Below the pieces are notes generated by a model. It was not told the DNA's origin and did no database searches. It saw nothing but the letters and a program-made list of their open reading frames with translations. The position numbers were made by a program, and so were the translations under genes. Source: an uncultured Bacteroidales bacterium (GTDB lineage: Bacteria > Bacteroidota > Bacteroidia > Bacteroidales > FEN-979). Taken from it: DNA of 41,993 nt. This document shows positions 5,541 through 36,017 of the stretch, piece by piece. The stretch spans positions 1 through 41,993 of the forward strand of contig CAIMWF010000042.1 of assembly GCA_903845055.1 (NCBI GenBank), given 5' to 3'. The stretch's first letter is position 1. Every line of letters starts with the position of its first letter.

Positions 5541-7292
5541 ATGATCCAGAAAATTGAATTCCTGTCTGAACTGATCCGGAATTTAAAAACGGATGCTGAC
5601 CTGGCGCGCGACCGTGAAATGATTTTGGATGAACTGGAAAAAGTAAACGGTGAAATTGCAAAGCTCAATTTCAAGGTCCAGCGCTCCACCAAGGAAAAAA
5701 ACATCCTCTCCTCGCTGCTGACCCGTACCACTTTCGACCTTAAACAGATATCGAACAGCCTGAGCGTTAGGGCGGAGGAGTTGTCGACCCTGCTCACCAC
5801 CATCCCGGCCTTCGTTTTTTTCAAGGACATTCATCTCAACTACCTGCTCGTCAACCAGGCCTTTGCCGACCTGGTAGGGGCTTCGGCGCGGGAGGTCACT
5901 GGGAAAAATTCCTCTGCGTTTTTCGGCATCCAGCACCATAGCGATTACGTTGAAAAGGAAAACCAGGTGATCCGTTACGGGATCGCATTTTACGATATCG
6001 AAGAGCATGTTACCGGCCGCGACCGGGAGTTCTGGGTCAACACGAACATCGCGCCGATCAGGAATGCCGAAAACGAGATCGTAGGGTTGATCGGCATTTC
6101 ATGGGACATCACCGAACGGAAGCAGCATGAAGAGGAGCTCCGCATGGCCAAGGAACTGGCCGAAGCGGGCACCATGGCCAAGAATGAATTCATCGCCAGT
6201 GTTTCGCACGAATTCCGAACCCCCATGAACGGCATCCTGGGGCTGTCGGAGATCCTTAAAAATACCAGTCTCAGCAACGAACAGCTCGACCTGCTGAAAG
6301 GAATCGTTTCATCGGCCGAAAATCTGCTGGTGCTGCTCAACGATGTGCTTGATTTATCGGCCATGGAGGCCGGGAAGATGAAACTCGACTTCCAGCCCTT
6401 CATGCTCGACCGCGTGCTCGAGGATATCTCCCTGGTGATGGCCATGAAGGCAAAGGAAAAGCTGCTTGGCTTCACCATCACCGTCAAAAAGGAGGTTCCC
6501 AATGCTGTCATCGGTGATGCCCAGCGGGTACGGCAAATCCTGCTGAACCTCGCAAATAATGCCGTGAAATTTACCGAGATGGGAAGTGTGGACATTGAGG
6601 TAGGCCTGGTCGAAAAAACAGACCGTAAAGCCGTTTTAAAATTCGAGGTGGCCGACACGGGCATCGGCATCCCCGCGGAGGCGATGGAATCGCTGTTCAA
6701 GGTGTTCTCCAGACTGAAACAGGATAAATCGAAACTCATCGCGGGCACCGGGCTTGGACTTTCCATCTGCCGCAAGCTGACCGAAATGATGGATGGGGAG
6801 ATCGGGGTTGAAAGCGCCCCAGGCGAGGGTTCGCGGTTCTGGTTCACGCTTCCGTTCACCCTTTCGACCACTGCATCAAAGAAAGCCGGCAACCTCGCAG
6901 CCGCCCGGTCGCAGCCCTACGCCGGGTTGCGTGTGCTGGTAGCCGAAGACAACCCCATTAACCTGCGCATCGTCGATTTCCAGCTGCGAAAAATGGGGTT
7001 CGAAGTCGTTCCCGTTGTGAACGGGCAGGAGGCACTGGATAAATACCTCGGGGGGAAATTCGACCTGGTCATTCTTGATATCCAGATGCCGATCCTCGAC
7101 GGGTACCAGGTTGCAAAACAGATCAGGGAAACCGAATCGGCCGCTGGGGGGCATATTCCCATCATCGCGCTCACTGCCAATGCCATGAAGGGTGACCGGG
7201 AGCAGTACCTGGGCGCCGGCATGGATGAATACGTGAGCAAACCCTTCACGCATGAAACGCTGCTGAAGGCGATTGGCAATCTTTTAACTTAG
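5541..7292 (+). CDS. Soluble PAS-containing hybrid sensor histidine kinase
   Basis: This 583-residue protein phosphorylates itself and passes the phosphate to its own receiver. In order it has a charged coiled-coil N-terminus (about 1-80), a PAS domain with PAC tail (about 85-195, ending DITERKQHEEEL), HisKA with phosphoacceptor His223 in SVSHEFRTPMNGILG, HATPase_c with N box LNLANNAVKF and G boxes DTGIGIP and GTGLGLS, and a receiver domain (about 460-583) with VAEDNP and phosphoacceptor Asp513 in VILDIQMP. No membrane segment is visible, so its input is cytoplasmic, probably the FIST protein encoded one base upstream. There is no DNA-binding output domain, so a phosphotransfer partner elsewhere is expected. 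The TAG stop is the first triplet of a TAGGCAA repeat array. Confidence 0.93.
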   Translation: MIQKIEFLSELIRNLKTDADLARDREMILDELEKVNGEIAKLNFKVQRSTKEKNILSSLLTRTTFDLKQISNSLSVRAEELSTLLTTIPAFVFFKDIHLNYLLVNQAFADLVGASAREVTGKNSSAFFGIQHHSDYVEKENQVIRYGIAFYDIEEHVTGRDREFWVNTNIAPIRNAENEIVGLIGISWDITERKQHEEELRMAKELAEAGTMAKNEFIASVSHEFRTPMNGILGLSEILKNTSLSNEQLDLLKGIVSSAENLLVLLNDVLDLSAMEAGKMKLDFQPFMLDRVLEDISLVMAMKAKEKLLGFTITVKKEVPNAVIGDAQRVRQILLNLANNAVKFTEMGSVDIEVGLVEKTDRKAVLKFEVADTGIGIPAEAMESLFKVFSRLKQDKSKLIAGTGLGLSICRKLTEMMDGEIGVESAPGEGSRFWFTLPFTLSTTASKKAGNLAAARSQPYAGLRVLVAEDNPINLRIVDFQLRKMGFEVVPVVNGQEALDKYLGGKFDLVILDIQMPILDGYQVAKQIRETESAAGGHIPIIALTANAMKGDREQYLGAGMDEYVSKPFTHETLLKAIGNLLT

Positions 7293-7317
7293 GCAACAGG
7301 CAATAGGCAATAGCCAC
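7290..7317. repeat. 7-bp tandem array (TAGGCAA family) at kinase stop codon
   Basis: Four exact-length heptamers read TAGGCAA, CAGGCAA, TAGGCAA and TAGCCAC. The first TAG (7290-7292) is the stop codon of the hybrid kinase. The same unit family recurs at 14064-14112 and 35983-36017. It lies between the kinase end and the desaturase gene, which ends at 7321 on the other strand. Confidence 0.8.
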
Positions 7318-7320
7318 CTG

Positions 7321-8346
7321 CTACCAGTTGCCGATCTGGCGTCGGCGCATGGAGCGGATGCTGACCAGTTCGGCTGTTTTTTCGTCAAACAAACGCAGGG
7401 CCAGGGTTCTGAAACTCTGCCTGACGGTGAGGGGCCGTATGTTGCGGAACAGGTCGTTCTCGCGGTGGCACCGTGCCAGGTTGTAATTGGGGATCATCGG
7501 GCTGAGGTGATGGATGTGGTGGAACCCGATGTTCCCTGAGAAATATTGAAGAATCCGCGGGAGTTTGTAATAGGAGCTTCCCTCCAGCGCAACCTTTCGG
7601 TATTCCCAGTTTTCGCTCCGCGCCCAGTAGGTCGGGTTGAACTGGTGCTGCACGTAGAACAGCCAGAAACCGAAGATCCCGGCGAAGGAGATGACCGGAA
7701 GCTGGATCATGACGACGGCCTTTACCCCGATCACGAGGCTTAACAGTCCGAAGACGACCAGCAGGCCTGCGTTGGTCAGATAGACGCTCAGCCGGCTCTT
7801 CACACCCATCCCCTTTTTGGTGAACCGGTTCCCGATGATAAAAACGAAAGGCGCCCCCACGCAGAACATGGTGACGGGGTTACGGTAAAAACGGTAGACG
7901 ATCTTCTGCCAGCGCGTGCTTGCCTGGTATTCGGCAACCGTCATCGTCCATACGTCGCCGATGCCTCGTTTATCAAGGTTCCCGGCGGTGTCGTGGTGGA
8001 TTTCATGGTTTTTCGACCAGTGAAAATAGGGGGTAAAGGTCAGGATGCCAATGAAAAGACCGACGATGTTGCTCACCTTTTCCGACCTGAAATAGGAGCC
8101 GTGGCTGCAGTCGTGGTAGATGATGAACAGCCGCACCAGCATCCCGGCCGAGGGGATCGATAATCCGAGGGTGATCCAGTAAGAATATTTCAGGCTTACG
8201 ATCATCAGGATCCAGGAGGTGATGTAAAAAAGGAGGTTCAGGGATAACTGTCCCCAGCTTTTTAACAGGTCGGGGTGGTTGTATTGCCTGACGATCTTCA
8301 CCCAGGAGGTGTCAGGGGGCGTATTGTGTGATATCGGGGAGTTCAT
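7321..8346 (-). CDS. Membrane fatty acid desaturase
   Basis: The 341-residue integral membrane protein belongs to the FA_desaturase family of di-iron enzymes that introduce double bonds into acyl chains, controlling membrane fluidity. All three His boxes are present: HDCSH (about residue 75), NHEIHHD (about 110) and GFHHIHH (about 275). Hydrophobic segments surround them (about 35-75, 88-105, 155-230). The final segment SPMIPNYNLARCHRE is typical of bacterial omega-6 or delta-12-like members. The electron donor and regiospecificity cannot be read from sequence. An upstream TACCTTTG sits 21 bases before the ATG. The OsmC gene lies further upstream on the same strand but seems to have its own promoter. 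Confidence 0.9.
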   Translation of the reverse strand: MNSPISHNTPPDTSWVKIVRQYNHPDLLKSWGQLSLNLLFYITSWILMIVSLKYSYWITLGLSIPSAGMLVRLFIIYHDCSHGSYFRSEKVSNIVGLFIGILTFTPYFHWSKNHEIHHDTAGNLDKRGIGDVWTMTVAEYQASTRWQKIVYRFYRNPVTMFCVGAPFVFIIGNRFTKKGMGVKSRLSVYLTNAGLLVVFGLLSLVIGVKAVVMIQLPVISFAGIFGFWLFYVQHQFNPTYWARSENWEYRKVALEGSSYYKLPRILQYFSGNIGFHHIHHLSPMIPNYNLARCHRENDLFRNIRPLTVRQSFRTLALRLFDEKTAELVSIRSMRRRQIGNW

Positions 8347-8367
8347 GTTGTACCTTGTAATTTATTG

Positions 8368-8375
8368 CAAAGGTA
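8368..8375 (-). promoter_or_regulatory. -7 element for desaturase gene
   Basis: On the minus strand TACCTTTG matches TAnnTTTG exactly, 21 bases upstream of the desaturase ATG. No TTG is found at the usual 19-21 base spacing, so this is a partial promoter match. Confidence 0.45.
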
Positions 8376-8429
8376 CGACATATCGGGGGGCACGGGATAA
8401 AAATCACGCAGGATGGTTTGAAAAGCAGG

Positions 8430-8855
8430 TTATTGGGCCATTGGGAGCACCACGATTTCCCAGGTCACCTCCATGGCTTTCTGGTATACGTAAGATACGC
8501 CACAGTATCGTTCCTGTGAAAGCTGCACCGCTTTTTCCAGTTTGGCCATATCGGGGTTTTCACCCGTGAATTCATAGACCACATGCATTTTGTCATAATG
8601 TTTCGGGTGCTCTTCCGTCACATTCGCCGACACGCGGATGTTGAGCCCGGTAAAGGGCACCTGCATCTTCTTCAGGATGGAAACTACGTCCATCCCCGAA
8701 CAGCCCGCCAAAGAAGCCAGCATCAGCTCCTTCGGGCGCGATCCCTTGTCTTCTCCTCCAACTGCCGGGTGTGCATCCATGATGACATGATGGCCGCTTA
8801 CATTCGCGTCGAACATCATATTTCCTTTCCAGGAAGTCTCTACAGTATGTTGCAT
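8430..8855 (-). CDS. OsmC/YhfA-like family protein
   Basis: The 141-residue protein has the OsmC fold, a thiol-dependent hydroperoxidase family. The two conserved Cys are present, one in the central helix LASLAGCSGMDVVSIL (about residue 53) and one in ERYCGVSYVY (about residue 122). Family enzymes reduce organic hydroperoxides using this pair. The GGEDKGSRPKELMLASL lead-in is typical of the YhfA-like branch, whose substrate is less certain than that of Ohr. The protein is cytoplasmic. It sits between a desaturase and a methyltransferase, and a link to lipid peroxide defence is only suggested by this neighbourhood. Confidence 0.88.
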   Translation of the reverse strand: MQHTVETSWKGNMMFDANVSGHHVIMDAHPAVGGEDKGSRPKELMLASLAGCSGMDVVSILKKMQVPFTGLNIRVSANVTEEHPKHYDKMHVVYEFTGENPDMAKLEKAVQLSQERYCGVSYVYQKAMEVTWEIVVLPMAQ

Positions 8856-8879
8856 GATCAGGTTGGTTTAGTCATATGA

Positions 8880-8911
8880 CAAAAATACGATATTCCGGGG
8901 AGAAACACCAA
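8880..8911 (-). promoter_or_regulatory. Putative promoter for OsmC gene
   Basis: On the minus strand TTG (8911-8909), a 21-base spacer and TATTTTTG (8887-8880) fit the Bacteroidetes consensus. The -7 box lies 24 bases upstream of the OsmC ATG. Confidence 0.5.
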
Positions 8912-8951
8912 GCGTGGCGGTGAAATATAAGTGCCGGAAGGATGCGTGGTG

Positions 8952-9572
8952 TTATTCTTTTACAGCCGTCAGTAGAAAAACCGGGTATTCCCGGGTGCCG
9001 GCCGCAGCCTCTTTACGGATCACGAAACAGGTTGAACACTGTATGCCCGTAAACCCGGTTTCTTCAAGCAGTGACGACAGGGCGGCAGGGTCGAAACCAT
9101 GGTGTACATCGGTGCTGCCATCATGAAAAGAACCGTCTTCGGCATGGAGGTCGGCTATGGCGATCACCCCGCCCGGGGCGGTCATCTCATAGAATTTTCC
9201 CACGATGGCCGGTACATCTTTCATGTGGTGCATTACCATCTGGGTGAAAATGATGTCGAAAGGATCGCCGGCATAGTCCTCCTTCTCGAGGTCGAATAGC
9301 AGGGTATTGATCTTCCCCTGGTCGTCGCTTGCAAGCTTTTCCCGGGCTATTCCGAGCATGCCGGCAGAAGTGTCCATCAACGTGATCCGGTCAAACCGGT
9401 CTTTGAGGATGAAACTCAGCAGCCCCGTACCGGCACCGAATTCCAGGGCACGCATTCCCGGGGTAAACCGGAGCCGTTGCACCATTTCACCGGCCACAGC
9501 GGCAGTACGGTCGAGGTTCGACGGGTTCTTGTCCCACTGCCCGGCCTTCTGATCGAAATCGTTCATAAACAT
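8952..9572 (-). CDS. Class I SAM-dependent methyltransferase
   Basis: This 206-residue protein has the Rossmann-like methyltransferase fold. Motif I, ALEFGAGTGLLSF, is at about residues 43-55, followed by the acidic strand ITLMDTSAGML, then FDIIFTQMVMHHMKDV (motif IV region) and APGGVIAIADLHAEDGSFH. The substrate is not evident. The FTGIQCSTCFVIRKE tail with nearby cysteines resembles small-molecule methyltransferases of the UbiE/ArsM-like type, but this is not diagnostic. Two close in-frame ATG codons (9570-9572 and 9564-9566) compete as starts; neither has a clear ribosome binding site. A terminator belonging to the upstream heme-motif protein gene separates it from that gene. Confidence 0.85.
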   Translation of the reverse strand: MFMNDFDQKAGQWDKNPSNLDRTAAVAGEMVQRLRFTPGMRALEFGAGTGLLSFILKDRFDRITLMDTSAGMLGIAREKLASDDQGKINTLLFDLEKEDYAGDPFDIIFTQMVMHHMKDVPAIVGKFYEMTAPGGVIAIADLHAEDGSFHDGSTDVHHGFDPAALSSLLEETGFTGIQCSTCFVIRKEAAAGTREYPVFLLTAVKE

Positions 9573-9621
9573 TCTTTATTTGCAAAAGAACGGAAAAAAA
9601 CCGGGCGATTGTTTACCTTCT

Positions 9622-9654
9622 AAAAGAAAAAGGCTGTACCGCATTGGCACAGCC
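9622..9654 (-). terminator. Terminator of first choice-of-anchor V gene
   Basis: On the minus strand GGCTGTGCC pairs with GGTACAGCC (one G-T pair) around a short loop and is followed by TTTTTCTTTT. It lies 75 bases after the end of the 9729-11534 gene and matches the terminators of its two paralogues in position. Confidence 0.75.
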
Positions 9655-9728
9655 TCTTTTCAGGTCCGTGATCGCACCCCCGGTAACGTTTTGTTTGTTA
9701 AACCGTCGCCGGCGACAGATCCATGTAA

Positions 9729-11534
9729 TTATTCAATTACCAGTTTCCCTGATACCGTTTCCCCTGCGGTCACGATACAGATAAGGTAAAGCCCTTTCGG
9801 GGAACCGGTCATGCCGATCATTTCGGGGGTACCCGGGATGACGGTCCACGAATGGCGGAGGACGATCCTGCCCGCCATGCTGGTGATCACCATCGAGGCC
9901 TCTCCGGCAATGACTTTACCCAGGGTGACGGTAAAAATCCCGGTGGAGGGATTCGGTGAAACCACCAGGCAATTTTCGTTTTGCAGGTTTGCAATACCCG
10001 ATGGACCGTCGAAATGGATGTGACGGGCGCTGACTGCCGGGGTCGCGCAGGGCGACTCGGGCGAGGCGGTGAGGGTGAGGGTGACGTTACCACCTGTTTT
10101 GTCGGCAGTGCTGGGGTAATAGAATCCCGTGAGAGAAGCAGCGGCGCTGAAGGTCCCCGTACCGGAGGTGGTCCAGAGGACGGTCGTGTAATGTGCCGCA
10201 CTGCCGTTGAGGGGTACCTGGGTGGTGACGAACGCGCAGGTGGTGTCATTGCCGGCAGCGGCGGTGGCTGGTTCGTTGACCGCAACATTGGTGCTGGCAT
10301 CAGCGGTAAGGGTCCCGTCGATGACATGAACAATGTATTGGGTTGCCACCACAGGTGAAACGACCGGGTTTTGCTGGGCCGAAGTAAAGCCCGCCGGTAC
10401 CGAGGTCCACGAATAGGTGTAGCTCCCTGTTCCTCCTGCCGGGAAAGCATTGAGCTGTGAGGTCTGGCCTGCGCAGATCACCGAGGGGATGGCCGAGGCC
10501 GTAACGGATAACGGCAGCATCGTTACCGTGACCGTGACTGAATCTTTCTTGGTTTGCGATCCGTCGTTGACATTCACAAGGTACTTGGTGGTGACCGTAG
10601 GTTGAACGGTCGGGTTTTGCGAGGTCGATGTAAAACCTGCGGGCTGGGAGGTCCAGTTGTAGGTGTAGGATCCTGTACCGCCCGTGGCAATGGCATTGAG
10701 TTGTGACGACTGGCCGCTGTTGATTGCAGATGGGGTTGCGGTTGCAACCACGGCCAGCGGGGCCGGGATGTTGACGGTAACGGTCACATTGCCCTGGGCT
10801 GTTCCGCCGCCGTCGTTTACTGTAACATTGTATTGCGTGGTAACCGAAGGCGTCACCATCGGGTTCTGCTGGGTTGAGGTGAAACCGGCAGGTACCGAGG
10901 TCCACGAATAGGTGTAGGTGCCCGATCCGCCCGAAGGGGTGGCGCTCAGTTGCGACGATCCGCCCAGTATAATGGTGGAGGGGTTGGCCGAGGTAACCAC
11001 CGCCAGCGGAACCAGTGCATTTTCGGCGATGACAATGTTTTCAAGTTTGGTGTTGGGTTCGCCTACGGTGATGGCGGCATAGAGGGTTACATTACCCGTG
11101 CCGGCAGCGGGGGCCGTCCAGGTGAAAGACCATGTTCCGGTGCTGCCCGAGGCAACCGCCGAGCTGTGGGTCACATATTTTGTCCCGCCGACGAGCTTGC
11201 TGCCCGATCCTGCGGCCAGAACGCCCAGCTGGGTGCCCGAGGCGTTTTGCGGCGACAGTTCAAACCCCTTTTTGCCGGTGCCCGTGGCGGTCACCGTGAT
11301 GGTGTATGAATTTCCACCAATATAGCCCGAGGGCGGGATGTTGGATGTGATCCAGCCGCTGACCGTGACGGCGGAACCGCCGTGGCAGCTCGTGCAGTTA
11401 TGGCCGTCGCCGGGTGATCCGGTATAACCTGAGGGTGCCCCGCTCGAATGCGCATAAAGGGGGGATCCTGTTGTGACGGACAGGAAAAAGGTCACGATCA
11501 CGAAGGTGATAAGTTGTAAAAATTCTTTCTTCAT
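9729..11534 (-). CDS. T9SS-secreted choice-of-anchor V protein with CxxCH motif (paralogue 1)
   Basis: This is a 601-residue secreted protein. A signal peptide (1-28, cleavage after LYA) leaves a mature N-terminus beginning HSSGAPSGYTGSPGDG. Next comes NCTSCHGG with a CxxCH heme c attachment motif at Cys47-His51, then a beta-rich choice-of-anchor V-like domain to about residue 170. Three Ig/PKD-like repeats of about 80 residues (each with GGxGxYTYxWTSxPAGFTS) follow, then one unrelated beta domain, then a T9SS type A sorting tail (SPNPSTGIFTVTL to KLVIE). The sorting tail directs export through the outer membrane by type IX secretion. It is one of three tandem paralogues, each with its own terminator. 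The function is unknown; surface electron transfer or adhesion are possibilities. Confidence 0.85.
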   Translation of the reverse strand: MKKEFLQLITFVIVTFFLSVTTGSPLYAHSSGAPSGYTGSPGDGHNCTSCHGGSAVTVSGWITSNIPPSGYIGGNSYTITVTATGTGKKGFELSPQNASGTQLGVLAAGSGSKLVGGTKYVTHSSAVASGSTGTWSFTWTAPAAGTGNVTLYAAITVGEPNTKLENIVIAENALVPLAVVTSANPSTIILGGSSQLSATPSGGSGTYTYSWTSVPAGFTSTQQNPMVTPSVTTQYNVTVNDGGGTAQGNVTVTVNIPAPLAVVATATPSAINSGQSSQLNAIATGGTGSYTYNWTSQPAGFTSTSQNPTVQPTVTTKYLVNVNDGSQTKKDSVTVTVTMLPLSVTASAIPSVICAGQTSQLNAFPAGGTGSYTYSWTSVPAGFTSAQQNPVVSPVVATQYIVHVIDGTLTADASTNVAVNEPATAAAGNDTTCAFVTTQVPLNGSAAHYTTVLWTTSGTGTFSAAASLTGFYYPSTADKTGGNVTLTLTASPESPCATPAVSARHIHFDGPSGIANLQNENCLVVSPNPSTGIFTVTLGKVIAGEASMVITSMAGRIVLRHSWTVIPGTPEMIGMTGSPKGLYLICIVTAGETVSGKLVIE

Positions 11535-11820: not shown

Positions 11821-11851
11821 AAGGCTGTCGCCCCATCGGGGCAACAGCCTT
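11815..11851 (-). terminator. Terminator of paralogue 2
   Basis: On the minus strand a 14-bp stem, AAGGCTGTTGCCCC with GGGGCGACAGCCTT (one G-T pair), closes a three-base loop and is followed by a run of T. It starts 21 bases after the stop codon. Confidence 0.85.
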
Positions 11852-11872
11852 GGAAAGGGAGTTGAGAAGGGG

Positions 11873-14160: not shown

Positions 14161-14194
14161 AAAAGGTTGTCTCATTTTTTGAGACAACCTTTTT
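14161..14194 (-). terminator. Terminator of paralogue 3
   Basis: AGGTTGTCTC at 14164-14173 pairs perfectly with GAGACAACCT at 14181-14190, flanked by A and T runs on both sides. On the minus strand it ends in a T run and begins about 20 bases after the stop of paralogue 3. Confidence 0.8.
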
Positions 14195-17815: not shown

Positions 17816-18490
17816 CTATAGTAATGGTAACTGGTCAACGGCGGGTTCGAGGATTTCCGGCCCGTCATTCTTTGGTGAATTGACCCGTGATGATACCGGG
17901 TATGCCTCCATTTCCGAGGCAGGGTAGGGCTGCAGCAGGGCTGAAAGAGAAGGGCCGGGTCCCCGTGCGATCCAGCGTTGTTCCTCCTCCCTGCGGAGGA
18001 TTACCGGCATGCGGTCGTGGATTTCTGCCATCAGTTCATTCGGCGAGGTGGTGATGATGGTAAAGGTACGGATGATCTCCCCGTCGCCGCTGGTCCACTG
18101 ATCCCACAAACCTGCGAAACAAAAAGGATCACCGCTTTTTAACCTGATGTTGTATGGGGTTTTGTGCGCGTTCCGCTTCCATTCGAAAAAACCGGTGGCA
18201 GGCACCAGGCAACGGCGCGAACGGAATGCATTTTTAAAGGAGGGTTTCTCCGCGATGGTTTCAGCCCGGGCATTGATGAGTTTGCTCCCGATGGCCGGAT
18301 CTTTTGCCCAGGATGGAATGAGTCCCCAACGCATTAACCGGAATTCGCCGGGCGTTTCGCATGAAATCACCGCGAGGTCCTGCGCAGGGGCGCAGTTATA
18401 GCGCGCCTTGTAAATGGCGGTGTGCACCCGCAGCCCGAACCGTTCGAGGATCAGCGCATCTTCAACCACAAAAGAATACCTTCCGCACAT
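17816..18490 (-). CDS. SRAP/HMCES family protein
   Basis: The 224-residue protein belongs to the SOS response-associated peptidase (SRAP, YedK/HMCES) family, which covalently caps abasic sites in single-stranded DNA. Cys2 (MCGRYS) is the residue that forms the DNA crosslink after Met removal. Other family landmarks are CAPAQDLAVI, LMRWGLIPSWA, INARAETIAEKPSF, CLVPATGFFEWK (catalytic Glu) and IHDRMPVIL with the conserved His. Its ATG is preceded by the 7-bp repeat array after rsmI. With a SMUG2-type glycosylase encoded convergently next door, this corner has two genes for base-lesion handling. Confidence 0.93.
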   Translation of the reverse strand: MCGRYSFVVEDALILERFGLRVHTAIYKARYNCAPAQDLAVISCETPGEFRLMRWGLIPSWAKDPAIGSKLINARAETIAEKPSFKNAFRSRRCLVPATGFFEWKRNAHKTPYNIRLKSGDPFCFAGLWDQWTSGDGEIIRTFTIITTSPNELMAEIHDRMPVILRREEEQRWIARGPGPSLSALLQPYPASEMEAYPVSSRVNSPKNDGPEILEPAVDQLPLL

Positions 18491-18492
18491 AA

Positions 18493-18527
18493 TTCGTCAT
18501 TCGTCATTTTTCATTCGTCCCTCGTCA
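18493..18527. repeat. 7-bp tandem array (TGACGAR family) at rsmI stop codon
   Basis: On the minus strand five exact-length heptamers read TGACGAG, GGACGAA, TGAAAAA, TGACGAA and TGACGAA. The first TGA (18527-18525) is the stop codon of rsmI, and the later ones fall in the other frames, so all three frames are closed. The array fills the whole gap up to the SRAP start codon. Confidence 0.85.
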
Positions 18528-19211
18528 TTTCCCCATGGCTCCCGCCACCACGATCACGATCTCCCCCTTCACCGTTTTGGCACCGAAATGGGCGGCAAGC
18601 TCCTTTAAGGAACCCCTGGCATTTTCCTCGAACAACTTGCTGAGTTCCCGTGAAACGCTCGCGTACCGTTCCTCTCCGAAATACTCTGCAAACTGTGACA
18701 GTGTTTTGACCAGCCGGTGCGGGGATTCATAAAAAACCATGGTTTTTTCTTCGGTCGAAAGGAGTGTAAGACGGGTATGCCTCCCTTTTTTATGGGGCAG
18801 GAATCCTTCGAAGATAAAATGGTCGGAGGCGATTCCCGAATTAACGAGGGCGGGAACAAAGGCGGTCGGACCCGGAAGGCACTCCACTGTGATGCCGGCC
18901 TGGATGCAGGCCCGCACCAGCAGGTACCCCGGGTCGGAGATGGCGGGAGTACCGGCATCGCTCACCAGCGCGCAAACGGCGCCCTCTTTCAGCCGGTCGA
19001 CAATGCCTTCGATGGTTTTGTGTTCGTTGAAGAGGTGGTGCGGAACCAGTTTATTTTCAATGCCGTAATGCTTGAGCAGGTTCCCCGAGGTGCGGGTGTC
19101 CTCGGCAAGGATGAAGTCGACCTCCTTCAGCACCCGCAGGGCACGGAGGGTGATGTCCTCGAGATTCCCGATCGGGGTTGGAACGACATACAACTGTGTT
19201 GGAGGCCTCAT
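18525..19211 (-). CDS. rsmI: 16S rRNA (cytidine1402-2'-O)-methyltransferase
   Basis: The 228-residue enzyme uses S-adenosylmethionine to 2'-O-methylate C1402 in the ribosomal decoding centre. Family motifs are clear: LYVVPTPIGNLEDITLRALRVL at the start, ILAEDTRTSGNLLKHYGI, LVSDAGTPAISDPGYLLV (about residues 80-98), CLPGPTAFVPALVNSGI and FYESPHRLVKTL, ending GEIVIVVAG. It is shorter than the E. coli protein because the C-terminal extension is missing, as usual in Bacteroidetes. It lies 14 bases after rprY and may share its transcript. The stop codon is part of a tandem repeat. Confidence 0.95.
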   Translation of the reverse strand: MRPPTQLYVVPTPIGNLEDITLRALRVLKEVDFILAEDTRTSGNLLKHYGIENKLVPHHLFNEHKTIEGIVDRLKEGAVCALVSDAGTPAISDPGYLLVRACIQAGITVECLPGPTAFVPALVNSGIASDHFIFEGFLPHKKGRHTRLTLLSTEEKTMVFYESPHRLVKTLSQFAEYFGEERYASVSRELSKLFEENARGSLKELAAHFGAKTVKGEIVIVVAGAMGK

Positions 19212-22881: not shown

Positions 22882-22909
22882 CCCGTCACTCGTCATTCGT
22901 CACTCGTCA
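22882..22909. repeat. 7-bp tandem array (TGACGAR family) at purN stop codon
   Basis: On the minus strand the units are TGACGAG, TGACGAA, TGACGAG and TGACGGG. The first two are read as the last residues of PurN in another frame, and the TGA of the third unit (22895-22893) is its stop codon. The array lies between the convergent pgi and purN. Confidence 0.85.
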
Positions 22910-23465
22910 CTATTTTCTCCACCACCTCCGCAAAATACCTGTACTCCAGCTGGTGTATCTTTTCCGCCAGTGTTTCGGGGGTGTCGGCCGGCGAAACCGG
23001 GCACCGGGCCTGGAAAATGATCTTCCCTTCATCGTAGCATTCATCGACATGATGGATGGTGATCCCCGATTCAGGCTCGCCTGCTGCGATCACCGCTTCG
23101 TGGACCCGCATGCCGTACATCCCCTTACCCCCGTATTTGGGCAGCAGGGCGGGGTGGATGTTGATGATCCTGCCGGGGAAGGCCGCGAGGATACCGGGCG
23201 GGATGAGCCATAGAAATCCTGCCAGGATGATGAAATCGATCCCGTTTTCCCTGAGCAGGGCGGGTATGCGACCGGTATCATAAAAGGTGTTCCTGCTGAA
23301 AACCTCCGATGGGATGCCGAGGGCGGCGGCCCGTTTCAAAACGAAGGCGGCGGGGTTGTTGCTGAGGATCAGCCGGATTGAAACGGAAGGATGACCTTCG
23401 AAATACTCGGCAATGCGTTGCGCGTTGGAGCCGTTCCCGGAGGCAAAAATGGCAAGTCGGGGCAT
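22893..23465 (-). CDS. purN: Phosphoribosylglycinamide formyltransferase (GART)
   Basis: The 190-residue enzyme transfers a formyl group from 10-formyl-THF to GAR in step three of purine synthesis. Motifs are LAIFASGNGSNAQRI at the start, VLKRAAALGIPSEVF, FIILAGFLWLIPPGIL, RIINIHPALLPKYGGKGMYG (catalytic His in NIHPALLP) and ITIHHVDECYDEGKIIFQ with the catalytic Asp. A 24-codon in-frame extension upstream (from 23537) has no homology logic and overlaps the promoter box at 23487-23494, so ATG 23463-23465 is chosen. The last residues, VTSDE, are encoded by a tandem repeat that also provides the stop codon. Confidence 0.94.
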   Translation of the reverse strand: MPRLAIFASGNGSNAQRIAEYFEGHPSVSIRLILSNNPAAFVLKRAAALGIPSEVFSRNTFYDTGRIPALLRENGIDFIILAGFLWLIPPGILAAFPGRIINIHPALLPKYGGKGMYGMRVHEAVIAAGEPESGITIHHVDECYDEGKIIFQARCPVSPADTPETLAEKIHQLEYRYFAEVVEKIVTSDE

Positions 23466-25324: not shown

Positions 25325-25330
25325 AGCACC

Positions 25331-29676: not shown

Positions 29677-29705
29677 GGTCCCGGGGTGTCAGAATTTCAT
29701 AAAAA

Positions 29706-29784
29706 TGACGAGTGACAGGTGATGAATGACGGGTTTCATTCATTCGTCATTCGTCACTCGTCACTTGTCATTTGTTATTGGTCA
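29706..29784. repeat. Head-to-head 7-bp arrays (TGACGAR family) forming an inverted repeat
   Basis: The plus strand carries four heptamers (TGACGAG, TGACAGG, TGATGAA, TGACGGG; 29706-29733). The minus strand carries six (TGACCAA, TAACAAA, TGACAAG, TGACGAG, TGACGAA, TGACGAA; 29784-29743). The two arms can pair, including GACGAGTGAC (29707-29716) with its complement at 29753-29762. The minus array begins eight bases after the cyclophilin stop and has stop codons in every frame. A terminator-like function is possible. Confidence 0.8.
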
Positions 29785-29791
29785 TTTAAAA

Positions 29792-30367
29792 CTATTCAAC
29801 AATCTTAACGGTCATCTTCACATCCTTCACAGGGCGGTCGGAGGGGTCTTTCTGAACGGAGGCGATCTTGGTGATCACATCAAATCCTTCGGTGATCTCG
29901 CCGAAAACGGTATAGTTGTTATCGAGAAAATGGGCGCCTTTTTCAGGTTCCACGATGTAAAACTGCGATCCGGAAGAGGCCTTTGCGGGGTTCTCGGTAC
30001 GGGCAGCGGCAAGGGCGCCTCTTTTGTGCGTAAAAGCCTTGTTGAATTCGGCGGGGATGGTATAACCGGGATCGCCCATGCCGAGCTGCTGGCCGGGCTT
30101 TGCGGTCTTCGACATGGGGTCGCCGCCCTGGATCATGAACCCGAGAATCACACGGTGAAACAGTGTTCCATCATAGAAACCTGATTTTGATAATTTTACG
30201 AAATTGTCGCGATGCTGCGGGGTTTCATTGTAGAGGATCCCCTTCATATCGCCATAGTCGGTATGGATTACGAATTTTACCACTTTTTGTTGGGTTTTGG
30301 TTTGAGACATTACTGAAAGATTGAACAGGAAAACAGTTGCCAGGATGGCCAAAGCGATTTTTTTCAT
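29792..30367 (-). CDS. Secreted cyclophilin-type peptidyl-prolyl isomerase
   Basis: The 191-residue protein has a signal peptide (1-22, MKKIALAILATVFLFNLSVM then SQ) and a cyclophilin domain from about residue 29. Catalytic and binding residues are in FHRVILGFMIQGGDP (Arg of the FHR motif) and SSGSQFYIV, with the last part at NYTVFGEITEGFDVI. It catalyses cis-trans isomerisation of proline peptide bonds in the periplasm, helping fold exported proteins. The short form is usual for Bacteroidetes. A -7 promoter element (30389-30396) lies upstream. It is followed downstream by the pairing 7-bp repeat arms. Confidence 0.95.
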   Translation of the reverse strand: MKKIALAILATVFLFNLSVMSQTKTQQKVVKFVIHTDYGDMKGILYNETPQHRDNFVKLSKSGFYDGTLFHRVILGFMIQGGDPMSKTAKPGQQLGMGDPGYTIPAEFNKAFTHKRGALAAARTENPAKASSGSQFYIVEPEKGAHFLDNNYTVFGEITEGFDVITKIASVQKDPSDRPVKDVKMTVKIVE

Positions 30368-30388
30368 GGTTTTTTGATTTTAGTGGGG

Positions 30389-30396
30389 CAAAAGTA
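30389..30396 (-). promoter_or_regulatory. -7 element for cyclophilin gene
   Basis: TACTTTTG on the minus strand lies 21 bases before the ATG and fits the -7 consensus. A -33 element would fall in the repeat array and is not clear. Confidence 0.45.
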
Positions 30397-30404
30397 CAAA
30401 AAAA

Positions 30405-30628
30405 GATTTGAAAATTTGGGAATGTGGAGATTTGGGAATTTGAGGATGTGAAGATTTGGGAATTTGGAAATGTGAAGATTTGGGAATTTGAGGATGTGAA
30501 GATTTGGGAATTTGGAAATGTGAAGATTTGGGAATTTAAGAATGTGGGAATCTTCACATCCTCAAATCTTCACATCCTCAAATCTTCACATCCTCAAATC
30601 TTCACATCCTCAAATCTTCACATCCTCA
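30405..30628. repeat. Large array of 24-bp and 16-bp repeats, inverted halves, at tdk stop codon
   Basis: Positions about 30405-30547 hold a 24-bp unit made of two 12-bp halves (GAAGATTTGGGA and a variable AATTTGGAAATGT or AATTTGAGGATGT). Positions 30549-30628 hold five identical 16-bp units, AATCTTCACATCCTCA. The second half is roughly the reverse complement of the first, so both could pair as a long hairpin. Read on the minus strand, the last unit begins with TGA, which is the stop codon of tdk. No spacers are present, so it is not CRISPR. Confidence 0.9.
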
Positions 30629-31204
30629 AATTAATTTTGTTTTTTCCAGGTAGCAACGCCGGCAGAGGGGTTCGTAGGAGTCCATTTCTCCCAGCATCAC
30701 CAGGTGGTTGTCGTTCACTTTGCGGTAGGTAAACTGGGCGAGGTCGCCACAGTTCATGCACACGGCATGCACCTTGGTGACATCCTCGGCGATGGCGATC
30801 AGGGCGGGCATGGGGCCGAAGGGTTTGCCGAGGTAGTCCATGTCGAGGCCGGCCACGATGACCCGGATGCCGCTGCTAGCAAGCTGGTTGCAGACAGCCG
30901 GCAGTTCGTCATCGAAAAACTGAGCTTCGTCGATGCCCACAACGTTCACATCATTGGTAAGGAGGAGGATCTCCGATGCCGACTGCACGGGGGTCGACTG
31001 GATGGCATGCTCATCGTGCGATACCACGTTAACATCATCATAGCGCTTGTCGATCGCCGGCTTGAAGATCTCGACCTTCTGCCGGGCGATCCTGGCCCGC
31101 TTTAACCTCCTGATCAGCTCTTCGGTCTTCCCCGAAAACATGGAACCGCAGATCACCTCTATCCACCCCAGGCGGTTTACCGGATTATTTTTTTCGATCT
31201 GCAT
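30626..31204 (-). CDS. tdk: Thymidine kinase
   Basis: The 192-residue enzyme phosphorylates thymidine to dTMP in nucleotide salvage. The P-loop is [16 protein letters not shown] (about residues 19-35). The Walker B-like DEAQFF and the lid-region tyrosine follow. The C-terminal half has two zinc-binding Cys pairs, [10 protein letters not shown] (about 146) and [11 protein letters not shown] (about 184), making a complete type II thymidine kinase. The C-terminus ends KLI followed by TGA that belongs to the 16-bp repeat array. A TATTTTTG box lies about 80 bases upstream (31290-31283). Confidence 0.96.
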
Positions 31205-31407
31205 TTGATGAGGTTAATATTGTTGTATTTTTATACCAGGATAAGTGATCCTGCTGACTTCCTTGTCTGCCTTCCCGGTTTACAAAAATAGGAATTTCCG
31301 TTGACCGGGAAAAGAATATGCCATGAAATGCCCCATGATCCGCGCCGGCAAAATGCAGGGGATTGCAGGGCATTGCTGGTGACCTGTTTATAGAAAAAAT
31401 TGTCCGG

Positions 31408-32106
31408 ATGAATAGAGAGATCATCAAAGACGAGATAAAATGGCTCCTCGACGCCATCAATGAACAATACGGGACCATCAGCCTTCACGGGGACAGGATT
31501 CCGCAGATTGAATTTGACATCCTGATGGATAACCTGCGGAAAATGTATGAAAACCTGCACATGCTCAAGCGGCTTGATGATCCGCATTTTTCGTATGAAA
31601 AAAAGACCCCCGCGAGGGAACCCTCCTCGACGGTGAAATCACCTCCCCCCGATGTGAAGTTACATAAGCCTGCCGAAACCGCACCGCGTCCATCTCCGCC
31701 GGCCGCACCGTCAAGGCCCCCGGCCGTTCCGGCAAACAAGCCCGAACCGGCAGGATATGCGAGGAAACCGGCAGCTGCCGATGAGATCACCCTTTTCGGA
31801 AGCGAGGAGCCCGCCCTGAACACCCGCCTGAAGGAGGCCCGCGAACGAACCTTCAGCCCGAGGATTCCCTCCGTCAGGATCGACAACCTGAAGACCGCCA
31901 TCAGCATCAACGACAAGTTCATGTTCATCAACGAGCTTTTCGAGGGAAACCTTCGTGAATACAACGAGACCATCGATGCACTGAACGGTTTTTCAACCTT
32001 TGAACAGGCGGCAGATTATCTTGATCTCCTGCGGAAGAAAAACTTCTGGAATACGGGATCCGTTCCCTTTAAAAAGTTAAAGGAGCTGGTGGAAAGACGG
32101 TTCTGA
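31408..32106 (+). CDS. Hypothetical protein with conserved C-terminal helical domain
   Basis: I do not recognise a named function for this 232-residue protein. The N-terminal part (1-60, starting MNREIIKDEIKWLLDAINEQ) is helical and acidic. A Pro-Ala-rich linker (about 65-140) leads to a short FGSEEPAL segment and a compact C-terminal domain (about 165-232, INDKFMFINELFEGNLREYN) that resembles a module widespread in Bacteroidetes. The low-complexity linker suggests a tether between two domains. An in-frame frame extension upstream to 31363 lacks a good start; ATG at 31408 is used. It is separated from tdk by about 200 bases and is convergent with nothing. Confidence 0.6.
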   Translation: MNREIIKDEIKWLLDAINEQYGTISLHGDRIPQIEFDILMDNLRKMYENLHMLKRLDDPHFSYEKKTPAREPSSTVKSPPPDVKLHKPAETAPRPSPPAAPSRPPAVPANKPEPAGYARKPAAADEITLFGSEEPALNTRLKEARERTFSPRIPSVRIDNLKTAISINDKFMFINELFEGNLREYNETIDALNGFSTFEQAADYLDLLRKKNFWNTGSVPFKKLKELVERRF

Positions 32107-32203
32107 CCTCCCCGGTGACCCGGCATGCAGTGATGAAAAGCCTTTAACCCTCCGGCAGGATGAATGCTCCCTGCCTGGTTGTTTTGCGAAAAAAAACGTA
32201 ACA

Positions 32204-32234
32204 TTTGCTGTAATCACCACAATTATTATATTTG
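32204..32234 (+). promoter_or_regulatory. Canonical Bacteroidetes promoter for aquaporin
   Basis: TTTG at 32204-32207, a spacer of exactly 19 bases and TATATTTG at 32227-32234 match the consensus completely. It is 84 bases upstream of the aquaporin ATG, leaving a leader of about 75 bases. Confidence 0.75.
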
Positions 32235-32317
32235 TTGCAGCAGATCAAGGTGATTCATCTTCCTGCCGTTCAATTCAAACCAGGATCGGATTATTTCTAA
32301 AAATTAAACCAAAAACC

Positions 32318-33013
32318 ATGAAAAAATACATCGCAGAATGCATCGGCACGTTCAGTCTCGTGCTTTTCGGTTGCGGCGCCGCAGTCATTGCGGGGGTATC
32401 CGGCACCGGTCCCAGCGGCATCGGCCTGCTCGGCATTTCAATCGCTTTCGGCTTTGCCGTGGTTGCCATGGCCTACGCCATAGGCGGCATTTCGGGCTGC
32501 CATATCAATCCTGCCGTCACCATTGGCGTGCTTGCTGCCGGTAAAATGGAGGTGAAGGACGCCCTTGGATATATTGCGGCACAGATTCTCGGAGCGATTC
32601 TCGGGGCAGCGGTACTTTATCTCATCCGTTCCGGTCAGTCCGGCTTTACCATGGGTGAATGGGCACTTGGCTCAAACGGCTGGGGCGAAGGATACCTCGG
32701 AGGGTACAACACCCTGAGCGCTTTTGTCATCGAAATGGTCATGACCTTCCTCTTCCTGTTCGTCATCCTCGCAACCACCTCCAAATTCGGCAATAGCGCC
32801 ATGGCAGGTCTTGCCATCGGTGTAACCCTCATGCTGATCCACCTGGTGACCATCCCCGTCACGGGAACATCGGTCAACCCGGCACGGAGCATTGGTCCGG
32901 CCATTTTCGCCGGCGGAAAGGCACTCGCACAGCTCTGGCTCTTCATCGTGGCCCCCATCGTTGGCGCCCTGCTCGCAGCTGTTGTCTGGAAATTCGGATT
33001 TGAAAAGGAATAA
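32318..33013 (+). CDS. aqpZ: Aquaporin Z-type water channel
   Basis: The 231-residue MIP-family protein has six membrane helices and two NPA half-helices: HINPAVTIG (Asn64-Ala66) and SVNPARSIGPA (Asn187-Ala189, then Arg190). A His at about 175 (LMLIHLVTIP) and Arg190 fit the narrow aromatic/arginine filter of water-selective channels rather than glycerol facilitators. It acts in the inner membrane to equilibrate water under osmotic change. A well-formed promoter lies upstream, and a complex inverted repeat follows. Confidence 0.94.
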   Translation: MKKYIAECIGTFSLVLFGCGAAVIAGVSGTGPSGIGLLGISIAFGFAVVAMAYAIGGISGCHINPAVTIGVLAAGKMEVKDALGYIAAQILGAILGAAVLYLIRSGQSGFTMGEWALGSNGWGEGYLGGYNTLSAFVIEMVMTFLFLFVILATTSKFGNSAMAGLAIGVTLMLIHLVTIPVTGTSVNPARSIGPAIFAGGKALAQLWLFIVAPIVGALLAAVVWKFGFEKE

Positions 33014-33028
33014 CCGGTAGTTTGCAAT

Positions 33029-33098
33029 CCCCCTTTCCTTTTCCCACAAGGGAAGGGGGTAACTCCCGCTGCAGTGCGGAGGGTACGTCGTGGGAAAA
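33029..33098. repeat. Nested inverted repeat between aqpZ and the AsmA-like gene
   Basis: An outer arm TTTTCCCAC (33039-33047) pairs with GTGGGAAAA (33090-33098). A second, overlapping pairing joins CCCCCTTTCC (about 33029-33038) with GGAAGGGGG (33051-33059). An inner CTCCCGC/GCGGAGG pair is also present. These pairings compete, so only some can form at once. It may serve as the aqpZ terminator or be a small palindromic repetitive element. Confidence 0.5.
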
Positions 33099-33111
33099 AT
33101 AACATTCTGCA

Positions 33112-35985
33112 ATGAAAAAATTCCTGATAATTTCCGGGGGCATCGTTCTGGCCCTTTTCATGATGCTATTACTGGCCCCTCTTCTTTTCCGGGACAGAAT
33201 CAAGCAGGAGGTGAAAAATCTTGCAAACAGCAAGCTGAAAAGCGAGGTGAATTTTACCGACATGAATGTCTCGTTTTTCAGCCATTTCCCGAACCTCACC
33301 CTCACCCTCACCGGTTTTTCCCTGAAATCGTCCGCCCCCTTCAACAGTGACACCCTGGTCAGTGCCAGGGAGATCGCCTTCGGTGTCGATGTGAACAGCC
33401 TGTTCGGGAAGACCATCCGGATCACCAGGATCTATTTCAGCAAGGCCAGGGTCAACATCCTTTACAACGAACGCGGGGCCGCCAATTTCGATGTCTATAA
33501 ATCATCGGATACAGCCGCAGCTGCCGTAAAAAAGGACACTGCCCGCTCCGGCGGGGCGGAACTGAACATCGAGCATATTGTTTTCAGCGACTGCCAGGTC
33601 ATCTATGCCGATGCCTCCATGCCGGTCAGGGTGGTTGCGCACGGCCTCAACTATTCCGGGACAAGCAAAATCACCAGCGATTTCTTCGACCTGGTTTCCC
33701 GTGTCAGCATCGATGCCCTCGACGTGGAGTACAACCATGTAAAATACCTCGACGGGAAACCTGTCACTGCCAGGCTTGCGACAAAGGTCAACAACCGCGA
33801 CCTTTCGGTCAATTTTGAAAAAAACGACCTCAAAATCAAAGATATCCCGCTCCAGTTTACCGGGAAATTCTTTTTTGAAAAAGATGGCTACCAGGTGAAC
33901 CTCAATTTCCTGTCGGTGCTTGAAAAGGAATTCCTCAGTGCAAGATTCCAGGTCAGGCAGACCAAAGTGCCCTGGATCTCCGCGAAGGTCAATGCCAGTG
34001 TCGATCTCGGAAAATGGGCAAAAGCGCTGGATGTCAAAACAATCGACATCAAGGGCTTTTATGAGCTCAACCTTACCGCCGAGGGAAGTTACTTCACCGG
34101 CCCTGATACGAGCCGCATGCGGAAAGATACCGTCATCCTGTGCATCCCGAAATTCAGCCTGATGACAAAGCTCACGGGAGGGTATCTTAAATATCATGCC
34201 CTGCCGCAGGCCATCACCAACATGAACATGGTATTGAATGTGGCCTGTCCCGACAACGACTACAGGAACATCAACCTGCACATGAAGGATCTGCAGTTTG
34301 CCTTCCTGAAGAACAGGATCAGCGGATCCCTCGATATCAGCAACCTGCGCGATATGCCGGTGGACGCCGACCTCCGGGGCAGCTTCAACCTGGCTGAGCT
34401 GAAACAGGTCGTTCCGCTCGACAGCCTCAGCCTCTCGGGGATGCTTGACTTCGACGTAAAGGTGAAAGGGAATTATGCGCCGCGGAAAAGGATGTTCCCG
34501 CTGACCACCGCCACCCTCAACCTGGAGAATGGCCAGGTACAGACAAAATATTACCCCCATCCCATCGAAAAGATCGGCGTTCATGCTGTCATTACCAACC
34601 AGACCGGAACCATGAAGGATGTGAACATCCTGCTAAAGCCACTGACTTTTGGTTTCGAGGGAAAGACCTTCACCCTGAATGCGAACTGCAAAAACCTCGA
34701 CGACCTTGATTATGATATCCAGGCAAATGGGGTGATCGACCTGGGCAGGATATACAAGGTGTTTTCAAGGAAAGGAATGGCCCTCGATGGTTTTGTAGAA
34801 GCCGGACTGGCCCTGAAGGGCCGCCAAAGCGATGCGACCGCGGGAAGGTATGAGCGACTGAAGAATTCGGGAAGCCTGTCTTTGCGCAACATCTCGTTTG
34901 CGTCGGATCTCTTCCCGAAACCTTTCATCATCCGTTCGGGGAATTTCAGATTCGACCAGGACAAGATTTGGTTCGACCGGTTCATGGCTGGCTATGGCCG
35001 GTCCGATTTCAAACTGAAGGGATCGCTGAGCAACATCCTGAATTACACCCTTGCGAAGGGAGGAACCCTGAAGGGAGACTTTGAACTCAACTCCGACCTG
35101 CTCAGCGTGGATGAATTCATGGCCTATGCCCCCGACACCACCACCGTGTCGACCGCTGCGGCGGGTGTGGTCATTATCCCTGCCGATCTTGACATCGGGT
35201 TCAGTGCCGACATAAAAAACACGGAGTTCAAAGGATTGAAGATTCAGGATCTTCATGGAAAAATGGAGCTCAACAAGGGAATCCTGGTGCTGAAGGAATC
35301 GGATTTCAGCCTGATCGGCTGCAAGGTTAAAATGGATGCGACCTACGGGAGCATTACCCCGCAAAAGGCATTTTTTGATTTTCATGTTAAGGCAGAGGAT
35401 TTCGACATTAAGCGGGGATACAACGAAATAGCAATGATCAGGGAACTTGCCACATCGGCCGGCAAGGCCGAGGGTTTGGTCTCCATGGATTACGCCCTCA
35501 AAGGGCGCCTCGATGCGACCATGTTCCCGGTCCTGCCATCCCTGGAGGGCGGAGGCACGGTATCAGTCAAAAAAATAAAATTTTATGGCCTGAAGTTGTT
35601 CAACGACATCAGCAAGGGAACGCAGAAGGAGGGACTGAAAAATCCCGACCTGTCGAAGGTGGAGGTAAAGTCCACCATCAAAAACAACACCATCACCATG
35701 GAACAGTTCAAGTTCAAGGTAAAGGGAATCCGCGTGAGGATATCCGGATCAACCACCTTAGACAGCAAACTGGACCTGAAAATCAGGCTTGGCATGGGCC
35801 CCCTCGGCATCATCGGGATCCCGATGAAGGTTACCGGGACCTCCGAGAACATCAAGATCAAGTATGGTAAAGGCAAAGATTCGGATGAACTCAAAGAATC
35901 CGATTATTCCGATGAACTGCCGAAAGAGATGCTCGACCGCATCAAAAGCGTGAAGGAAGAGCCGGATGAAACGCCGGAAAAGTAG
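33112..35985 (+). CDS. AsmA-like envelope protein
   Basis: The 957-residue protein starts with a membrane anchor (about residues 4-26, FLIISGGIVLALFMMLLLAP) followed by a long beta-rich periplasmic region. It looks like the AsmA/TamB family: the N-terminal RIKQEVKNLANSKLKSEVNF and FSHFPNLTLTLTGFSLKSS segments match the AsmA N-terminal domain, and the C-terminal IRLGMGPLGIIGIPMKVTGT matches the AsmA_2 domain. Such proteins form elongated grooves linking inner and outer membrane and may help move lipids. The charged tail after residue 925 is Asp/Glu/Lys-rich. The TAG stop codon begins a TAGGCAT repeat array. It probably has its own transcript. Confidence 0.85.
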   Translation: MKKFLIISGGIVLALFMMLLLAPLLFRDRIKQEVKNLANSKLKSEVNFTDMNVSFFSHFPNLTLTLTGFSLKSSAPFNSDTLVSAREIAFGVDVNSLFGKTIRITRIYFSKARVNILYNERGAANFDVYKSSDTAAAAVKKDTARSGGAELNIEHIVFSDCQVIYADASMPVRVVAHGLNYSGTSKITSDFFDLVSRVSIDALDVEYNHVKYLDGKPVTARLATKVNNRDLSVNFEKNDLKIKDIPLQFTGKFFFEKDGYQVNLNFLSVLEKEFLSARFQVRQTKVPWISAKVNASVDLGKWAKALDVKTIDIKGFYELNLTAEGSYFTGPDTSRMRKDTVILCIPKFSLMTKLTGGYLKYHALPQAITNMNMVLNVACPDNDYRNINLHMKDLQFAFLKNRISGSLDISNLRDMPVDADLRGSFNLAELKQVVPLDSLSLSGMLDFDVKVKGNYAPRKRMFPLTTATLNLENGQVQTKYYPHPIEKIGVHAVITNQTGTMKDVNILLKPLTFGFEGKTFTLNANCKNLDDLDYDIQANGVIDLGRIYKVFSRKGMALDGFVEAGLALKGRQSDATAGRYERLKNSGSLSLRNISFASDLFPKPFIIRSGNFRFDQDKIWFDRFMAGYGRSDFKLKGSLSNILNYTLAKGGTLKGDFELNSDLLSVDEFMAYAPDTTTVSTAAAGVVIIPADLDIGFSADIKNTEFKGLKIQDLHGKMELNKGILVLKESDFSLIGCKVKMDATYGSITPQKAFFDFHVKAEDFDIKRGYNEIAMIRELATSAGKAEGLVSMDYALKGRLDATMFPVLPSLEGGGTVSVKKIKFYGLKLFNDISKGTQKEGLKNPDLSKVEVKSTIKNNTITMEQFKFKVKGIRVRISGSTTLDSKLDLKIRLGMGPLGIIGIPMKVTGTSENIKIKYGKGKDSDELKESDYSDELPKEMLDRIKSVKEEPDETPEK

Positions 35986-36017
35986 GCATCAGGCATTAGG
36001 CAACAGGCAATAGTTAG
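35983..36017. repeat. 7-bp tandem array (TAGGCAA family) at AsmA-like stop codon
   Basis: Five exact-length heptamers read TAGGCAT, CAGGCAT, TAGGCAA, CAGGCAA and TAGTTAG. The first TAG is the stop codon of the AsmA-like gene. TAG recurs at 35997 and 36011, so all three frames are closed. Confidence 0.85.

Follow-up and report, generated by a model that had tools for sequence, protein, structure and literature searches.

Five genes in a 41,993-nucleotide stretch of DNA from an uncultured Bacteroidales bacterium (the window; contig C42 of the 3.95-Mb genome G000) end in or beside a short tandem repeat whose units run on past the stop codon. The initial annotation took the stop triplet in all five to be the first three bases of a repeat unit and offered a fail-safe against readthrough, a transcription or ribosome-release signal, and slippage tolerated only outside coding sequence as possible reasons. 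The question raised by this locus is whether such repeats are tied to stop codons beyond these five genes and how they came to lie there.

Tandem arrays in the window and in its genome

All five arrays were recovered by TRF and confirmed by direct reading of the sequence, and Pfam agreed with the gene names (HisKA/HATPase_c/Response_reg for the kinase, TP_methylase for rsmI, Formyl_trans_N for purN, thymidine kinase for tdk, and AsmA for the AsmA-like gene). At a TRF score of at least 36, the window held 12 non-coding arrays, of which five touched a stop codon, one started 5 nt after a stop, and six were located elsewhere. The five arrays and three of the others were as follows.

7290-7313, plus strand: TAGGCAA array of 3.4 units at the hybrid histidine kinase gene (5541-7292); its first three bases are the stop TAG
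18492-18529, minus strand: TGACGAR array of 5.4 units at rsmI (18525-19211); stop TGA at 18527-18525
22884-22911, minus strand: TGACGAR array of 4 units at purN; stop TGA at 22895-22893, within the third unit
30549-30631, minus strand: 5.2 identical copies of the 16-mer TGAGGATGTGAAGATT at tdk; onset 3 nt before the stop TGA (30628-30626)
35983-36013, plus strand: TAGGCAN array at the AsmA-like gene (33112-35985), TRF period 14 (2 x 7); its first three bases are the stop TAG
29740-29786, minus strand: TGACGAR array with onset 5 nt past the intact TAG of gene 29792-30367; the stop is not overlapped
30403-30546, minus strand: intergenic array of period 24/48, a multiple of three, downstream of the tdk array
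1336-1357, minus strand: octamer array TCGCTACC (= GGTAGCGA), the main 8-bp family of the genome, 71 nt past a stop

Four of the five arrays (kinase, rsmI, tdk, and AsmA-like) began at the stop codon or within 3 nt of it, in agreement with the initial annotation. At purN, however, the onset lay 16 nt inside the gene, and the last residues of the protein, VTSDE, were read from the repeat. The rsmI array occupied the whole 34-nt gap before the next gene (17816-18490). Closure of all three reading frames, as claimed for AsmA-like, rsmI, and tdk, was confirmed and also found at purN, with two frames closed at the kinase. The 144-bp array at 30403-30546 adjoined the tdk array and consisted of similar words, ATTTGAG and GGATGTG; higher-order units seem to form from octamers here. 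A 9-bp array, CATTCCCTG, with 4.4 units at 36057-36096, lay within gene 36025-37014 (minus strand), in its C-terminal coding part, its period being a multiple of three as is usual for coding arrays in G000.

Since the five arrays were a selection out of 12, a larger sample was needed. TRF was applied, with the same score threshold for statistics, to 14 contigs of G000 (1.157 Mb, 29% of the genome), in which 895 genes were called with an in-house codon model without curated annotation. The resulting 382 arrays consisted of 210 intergenic arrays, 39 straddling a gene edge, and 133 coding arrays. Periods of 7 (n = 104) and 8 (n = 44) were the commonest and together accounted for 148 of the 249 non-coding arrays. 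The claim that periods are 7 or 16 and never a multiple of three was true of the five arrays but not of the sample, where 7 and 8 prevailed and the period was a multiple of three in 35 of the 249 non-coding arrays (30 of the 210 intergenic ones) versus 93 of the 133 coding arrays. The arrays covered 6.2% of intergenic bases, and the main unit families were TGACGAR, TAGCGARR, TAAATCG, TAAAAAT, and TAGGCAA, with a TTTGAGGA-like family also dispersed in the genome. Order-1 resampled intergenic sequence of equal length yielded 10 arrays in one resample, none with a period of 7 or 8. Roughly dinucleotide-preserving shuffling of the 3' flanks left 0 arrays near stops in 20 rounds, versus 59 observed.

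Position, orientation, and register at stop codons

Position and orientation statistics were based on the 242 of the 249 non-coding arrays lying between two called genes. In convergent gene pairs only the nearer stop was counted, and orientation was defined by the strand with more stop triplets, excluding ties. Non-coding arrays overlapped a stop codon in 49 cases and a start codon in five. Among 190 wholly intergenic arrays, 46 began within 8 nt of a stop, compared to 21.8 (S.D. 3.8) expected from random placement within the same gaps, and 46 was never reached in 2000 rounds. No enrichment was found near starts (21 arrays within 8 nt versus 18.0 expected). The association put forward by the initial annotation therefore survived on 29% of the genome, with arrays in excess at stops and an uneven spread of periods.

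The stop-bearing strand was the gene strand in 41 of the arrays overlapping a stop and the opposite strand in six, a bias that is partly forced because a stop inside an array requires the stop-bearing strand. At a gap of 0-8 nt, where the bias is not forced, the ratio was 28 to 13 toward the gene strand. No significant orientation bias was detected further out in G000, with ratios of 9 to 8 at 9-20 nt, 17 to 12 at 21-60 nt, and 23 to 27 beyond 60 nt. The bias at 0-8 nt came from tandem gene pairs (21 to 6), with convergent pairs at 7 to 7. Arrays located 21-60 nt before a start in tandem pairs leaned forward (27 to 12), which is unexplained. Samples of 0.4 Mb each from two congeners, G013 and G008, were analyzed likewise. 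Orientation in G013 was 10 to 0 for overlapping arrays and 11 to 0 at 0-8 nt, and 13 arrays were near stops versus 5.1 expected; its arrays beyond 60 nt leaned in reverse (17 to 5), again unexplained. The ratios in G008 (7 to 3 overlapping, 5 to 1 at 0-8 nt) were not significant, and no clustering at stops was observed (6 intergenic arrays versus 6.0 expected); the position excess is therefore absent in one of the three species.

If arrays merely abutted stops, a phase match with the native stop would be expected in one case in 7 or 8. Among the 43 testable arrays of G000, 14 were in phase with the native stop (5.7 expected), and 11 were in register with the same triplet (1.7 expected). An alternative filter for arrays reaching into codons gave 12 of 41 in register, nine of them with the same stop. 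At least one of the 11 same-stop cases (C48:21004) reached into the gene, and in two the stop was separated from the array by 2 or 4 non-repeat bases. Same-stop register was also seen in 6 of 11 arrays in G013 (0.6 expected) and 3 of 9 in G008 (0.4 expected), leading to 20 of 63 versus approximately 2.7 expected over the three species. The excess of stops that form the first triplet of a unit is real, yet it concerns a minority of the arrays near stops.

Arrays that overlapped a stop began at least 7 nt before it in 17 of 49 cases, and common protein ends were apparent. TSDE was C-terminal in three of its five occurrences among the 895 proteins (0.013 expected), KIKN in three of six, and EVAR in two of seven (0.013 to 0.018 expected across the three motifs). 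Fifteen proteins ended in TSDE, KIKN, EVAR, or a close variant; an array spanned the stop in 12 of these, and BLASTP at E 0.01 found no similar pair among the 15.

Gene ends and repeat families across species

Sixteen genes were queried in congeners, and three (C40:83188, C40:37620, and C134:4269), with 0 or 1 locus each, were excluded. The names scoA, coxA, hutH, lacZ, and aldehyde dehydrogenase were assigned by us, with Pfam matches to CoA_trans, COX1, Lyase_aromatic, beta-galactosidase domains, and Aldedh respectively; the product of C33:9618 matched ACP_syn_III. Congener protein alignments supported the ends of purN, rsmI, tdk, coxA, hutH, and others.

Six in-register genes were compared for their stop codons. 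Most copies of rsmI in 18 congeners ended within a few codons of the same place, with TGA in 11 of 18, and the next gene followed a few bases on in several, at the gap that the array fills in G000. The tdk stop was TGA in 13 of 18 loci, and at this stop array-free G008 carried AATTTGAG, matching the first unit in G000. The coxA stop was TAG in 9 of 14 loci; G009 shared the octamer that follows it in G000, G013 had a relative of that octamer, and G014 and G005 lacked an octamer there. G018 and G012 carried other octamers, for example CGGACAGG and TGGACAAG, behind the coxA stop, where G000 has TAGCGAGG. Different repeat families thus occupy one gene end in different congeners. TGA was found in only one of 14 loci of scoA and TAG in none of 10 loci of C33:9618, and the stop was therefore probably replaced there. 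At the aldehyde dehydrogenase stop, TGAC arrays were present in G001, G003, and G018 and absent in G008, G005, and G012, with TGA in one of six array-free congeners. The commonest congener stop was retained in rsmI, tdk, and coxA, and not in scoA, C33:9618, and aldehyde dehydrogenase. With three genes on each side, neither joining at the stop nor takeover of the stop dominates, and pure seeding at native stops was rejected on this mixed result.

Two further genes illustrated turnover at a fixed gene end. Inspection by eye showed TGACNNR units continuing across the purN stop at 6 of 17 congener loci, the choice of NNR being particular to each genome (an automatic score gave a lower count, 4 of 18 loci, own included), and additional congeners ended in V-T-x-D. 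The hutH stop codon was in the same position in 10 of 11 loci, as TAG in G000 and as TAA followed directly by TGACAAA units in G017. In G014 that triplet was AAA, and the gene ended at the directly following TGA of the array. Of the genes compared, hutH in G014 is the clearest instance of array takeover after loss of the native stop.

Units of this kind were dispersed and variable. Genome-wide, 16-mer matches with up to one mismatch numbered 120 for the GGCAAYA type and 49 for the ATTCGTC type, with 0 in the reversed control. The variants were TGACGAG/GAA in G000, TGACCAA/GAA in G008, and TGACAGG/GCG in G013. Over 19 genomes of the genus, TGACNNR matches ranged from 0 to 969 (reversed controls 0 to 32) and TAGGCAA-type matches from 0 to 170. 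Of 296 genomes in a phylum-wide pattern scan, 51 (G000 among them) had TGACNNR arrays, which indicates patchy heptamers instead of a conserved TGAC core, since the query fixed the core and the reversed control was frequent in other genomes. A GGCAATA scan of named genomes in several phyla returned at least 118 stretches, and 80 loci, several from the same genomes, were analyzed. Among the matches listed for these loci, arrays overlapping a stop were in the stop-bearing orientation 9 to 1, and those 0-20 nt after a stop 8 to 1, as judged with a crude longest-ORF caller that assigned no nearby gene end to 43 of 86 arrays and left 24 'CDS' or 'START' rows unused, probably ORFs read into the open strand.

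Mobile repeats of the REP/RAYT type were rejected: no match to the Y1 transposase (PF01797) was found in the draft genome, and the five window arrays, when folded as RNA, did not exceed shuffled sequences (z from +1.45 to -1.08). An intrinsic terminator or folded RNA was rejected on the same folding result.

Explanations and relation to known repeats

Of the three readings in the initial annotation, tolerance outside coding sequence fitted best, and the fail-safe and the folded signal were disfavored; dispersal of repeats between sites and takeover of stops have to be added to it. We consider it probable, if well short of certain, that fast-turnover arrays of 7-8 bp units are tolerated at gene ends if stops lie on their coding strand, and that the role of the stop then passes to them. 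Several dispersed families, located mostly in intergenic DNA, would change rapidly from one species to the next. Roughly three copies of a stop-bearing unit of 7 or 8 bp suffice to close all frames, so that an array whose stop-bearing strand is the coding strand can come to lie on the 3' end of a gene, or expand into it, with only a bounded extension of the protein. Two routes may follow. An existing TGA or TAG may serve as the point at which an array is attached in register, with microhomology between unit and stop as the simplest way, or the native stop may be lost and a stop of the array take over, a route supported by the comparison at hutH in G014. The outcome would be a repeat-supplied stop, with a short repeat-encoded tail when the array reaches into the gene. 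The repeats at gene ends are most likely harmless there, and not a designed safety device.

Tolerance and in-register joining explain most of the observations. The orientation bias at 0-8 nt past an intact stop, seen in G000 and G013, is not required by simple tolerance and has only a partial explanation. Arrays joined in the vicinity of a stop may be unstable, with the stop-bearing orientation alone surviving loss of the native stop. If arrays behave in this way, non-coding tandem repeats are able to take over basic gene punctuation, and such loci provide natural experiments in which stop codons are lost, proteins acquire common tails, and short repeats disperse in bacteria. They are also a warning for annotation, in that gene ends can be repeat-made and recent.

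Joining could instead be targeted, with recombination or template switching attaching arrays preferentially to the TGA or TAG at gene ends and the stop seeding the array. The same-stop register in three species, the shared AATTTGAG at the tdk stop of array-free G008, and the agreement of the G000 stop with the commonest congener stop at tdk, coxA, and rsmI all point this way. However, scoA, C33:9618, and aldehyde dehydrogenase do not carry the commonest congener stop, 29 of 41 stop-bearing arrays near stops were out of register, two of the 11 same-stop cases had non-repeat bases in between, and stop-preserving cases could be kept by selection alone. We regard targeted joining as unlikely, though with a real chance of being correct. 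A bolder version, in which stop codons are landing sites and stop-directed joining copies species-specific repeat 'dialects' in register with TGA or TAG, giving unrelated proteins a common C-terminal tag (TSDE, EVAR, or KIKN), is doubtful; if it were true, the tags could affect the turnover of those proteins.

A fail-safe, in which selection favors arrays because they guard against translational readthrough with additional stops in every frame after the primary one, would agree with the closure of all frames at four of the five window arrays and with the lean toward the stop-bearing orientation just after an intact stop in all three species (28 to 13 in G000, 11 to 0 in G013, and 5 to 1 in G008). 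Distances of 9-20 and 21-60 nt would be equally useful, but no significant bias was present there in G000 and the lean was confined to approximately 8 nt. Nor was TGA, the leakiest stop (Ho and Hurst 2019, PMC6764699), favored in front of the arrays: native stops before out-of-register arrays in G000 were TGA in 3 of 29 and TAA in 18 of 29 cases versus TGA in 289 of all 895 genes, a deficit that is partly biased because genes ending in TGA are counted in the other class when their array is in register. Before arrays without coding-strand stops, TGA was found in 6 of 15 cases. No compelling evidence that selection favors additional stops in bacteria is reported in PMC6764699. That work also concerns extra stops behind the primary one, as in G000 arrays, but as in-frame codons under selection, whereas the G000 stops come with the arrays. 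Selection for a fail-safe is accordingly improbable.

An RNA-level signal would have a purine-rich array on the mRNA act in termination, mRNA stability, or ribosome release. In the G000 sample, arrays at a gap of 0-8 nt were purine-rich on the mRNA strand 37 to 10, and those beyond 60 nt were pyrimidine-rich 43 to 16. The five arrays, however, showed no unusual folding, and the same gene end in congeners bore other repeat families or none, which makes such a signal very improbable. That reverse-strand open arrays and overlapping ORFs produced the pattern by chance or gene calling, as a simple in-house codon model without curated annotation might allow, is largely refuted and has next to no chance of being correct, given that shuffled flanks yielded no arrays, random placement lacked the excess, and congener protein alignments back the gene ends.

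With head-to-tail units of 7-8 bp at many unlinked, mainly intergenic sites, the G000 arrays are akin in kind to LSSR, STRR, and TAACTGA repeats. TAACTGA heptamer direct repeats are described in Beggiatoaceae, cyanobacteria, and a few Bacteroidetes, with a patchy distribution across phyla (MacGregor 2015, PMC4679880). As forward TAACTGA repeats leave no frame open, they can extend no more than 18 nt into a gene end; the stop of the upstream gene is overlapped by 13 sets. One Bacteroidetes set immediately follows a stop in reverse orientation, and residues encoded by repeats are noted (PMC4679880). Shared with G000 are stop-bearing 7-bp units dispersed mostly in intergenic DNA. In the main TAACTGA genome, however, arrays are located mainly upstream of starts, most often by 1 nt, and have been proposed to act in translation (PMC4679880). 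G000 instead has several 7- and 8-bp families with species-specific units that differ from TAACTGA, clustered at stops and often in register; start codons as the preferred site were rejected, given the 21 arrays versus 18.0 expected. Heptanucleotides are the most abundant LSSR in most genomes, units that are a multiple of three are the most likely to occur in coding sequence, and slippage is proposed (Mrazek and co-workers 2007, as summarized in PMC4679880). Neither register with stop codons nor orientation nor families of units particular to a species are part of that summary. Heptamer-derived arrays dispersed in some genomes are also known among prokaryote satellites, for example (GATAGRA)n of Chloroflexus (PMC6749651); their units differ from those of G000, and 'stop codon' is absent as a term from that article.

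Heptamers that overlap stops and close all frames are thus already known (MacGregor 2015, PMC4679880). New are the concentration of arrays at stops and not at starts, the register, the common tails, and the capture of stops between species. Our search of the open-licence literature returned no other paper on stop-codon heptamer arrays, with subscription papers outside its scope.

The heptameric quadruplex repeat of Xanthomonas and Nostoc reportedly forms dispersed heptamer-derived arrays too, with a unit that differs from the G000 units. Cyanobacterial STRR heptamers are 7-bp tandem repeats dispersed between genes. Among the matches listed, the identical GGCAATA heptamer array was present in Nostoc, Microcystis, and Roseofilum, as well as in Chitinophagaceae, Rhizobium, and other distant groups. 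This spread agrees with the occurrence across phyla described for TAACTGA.
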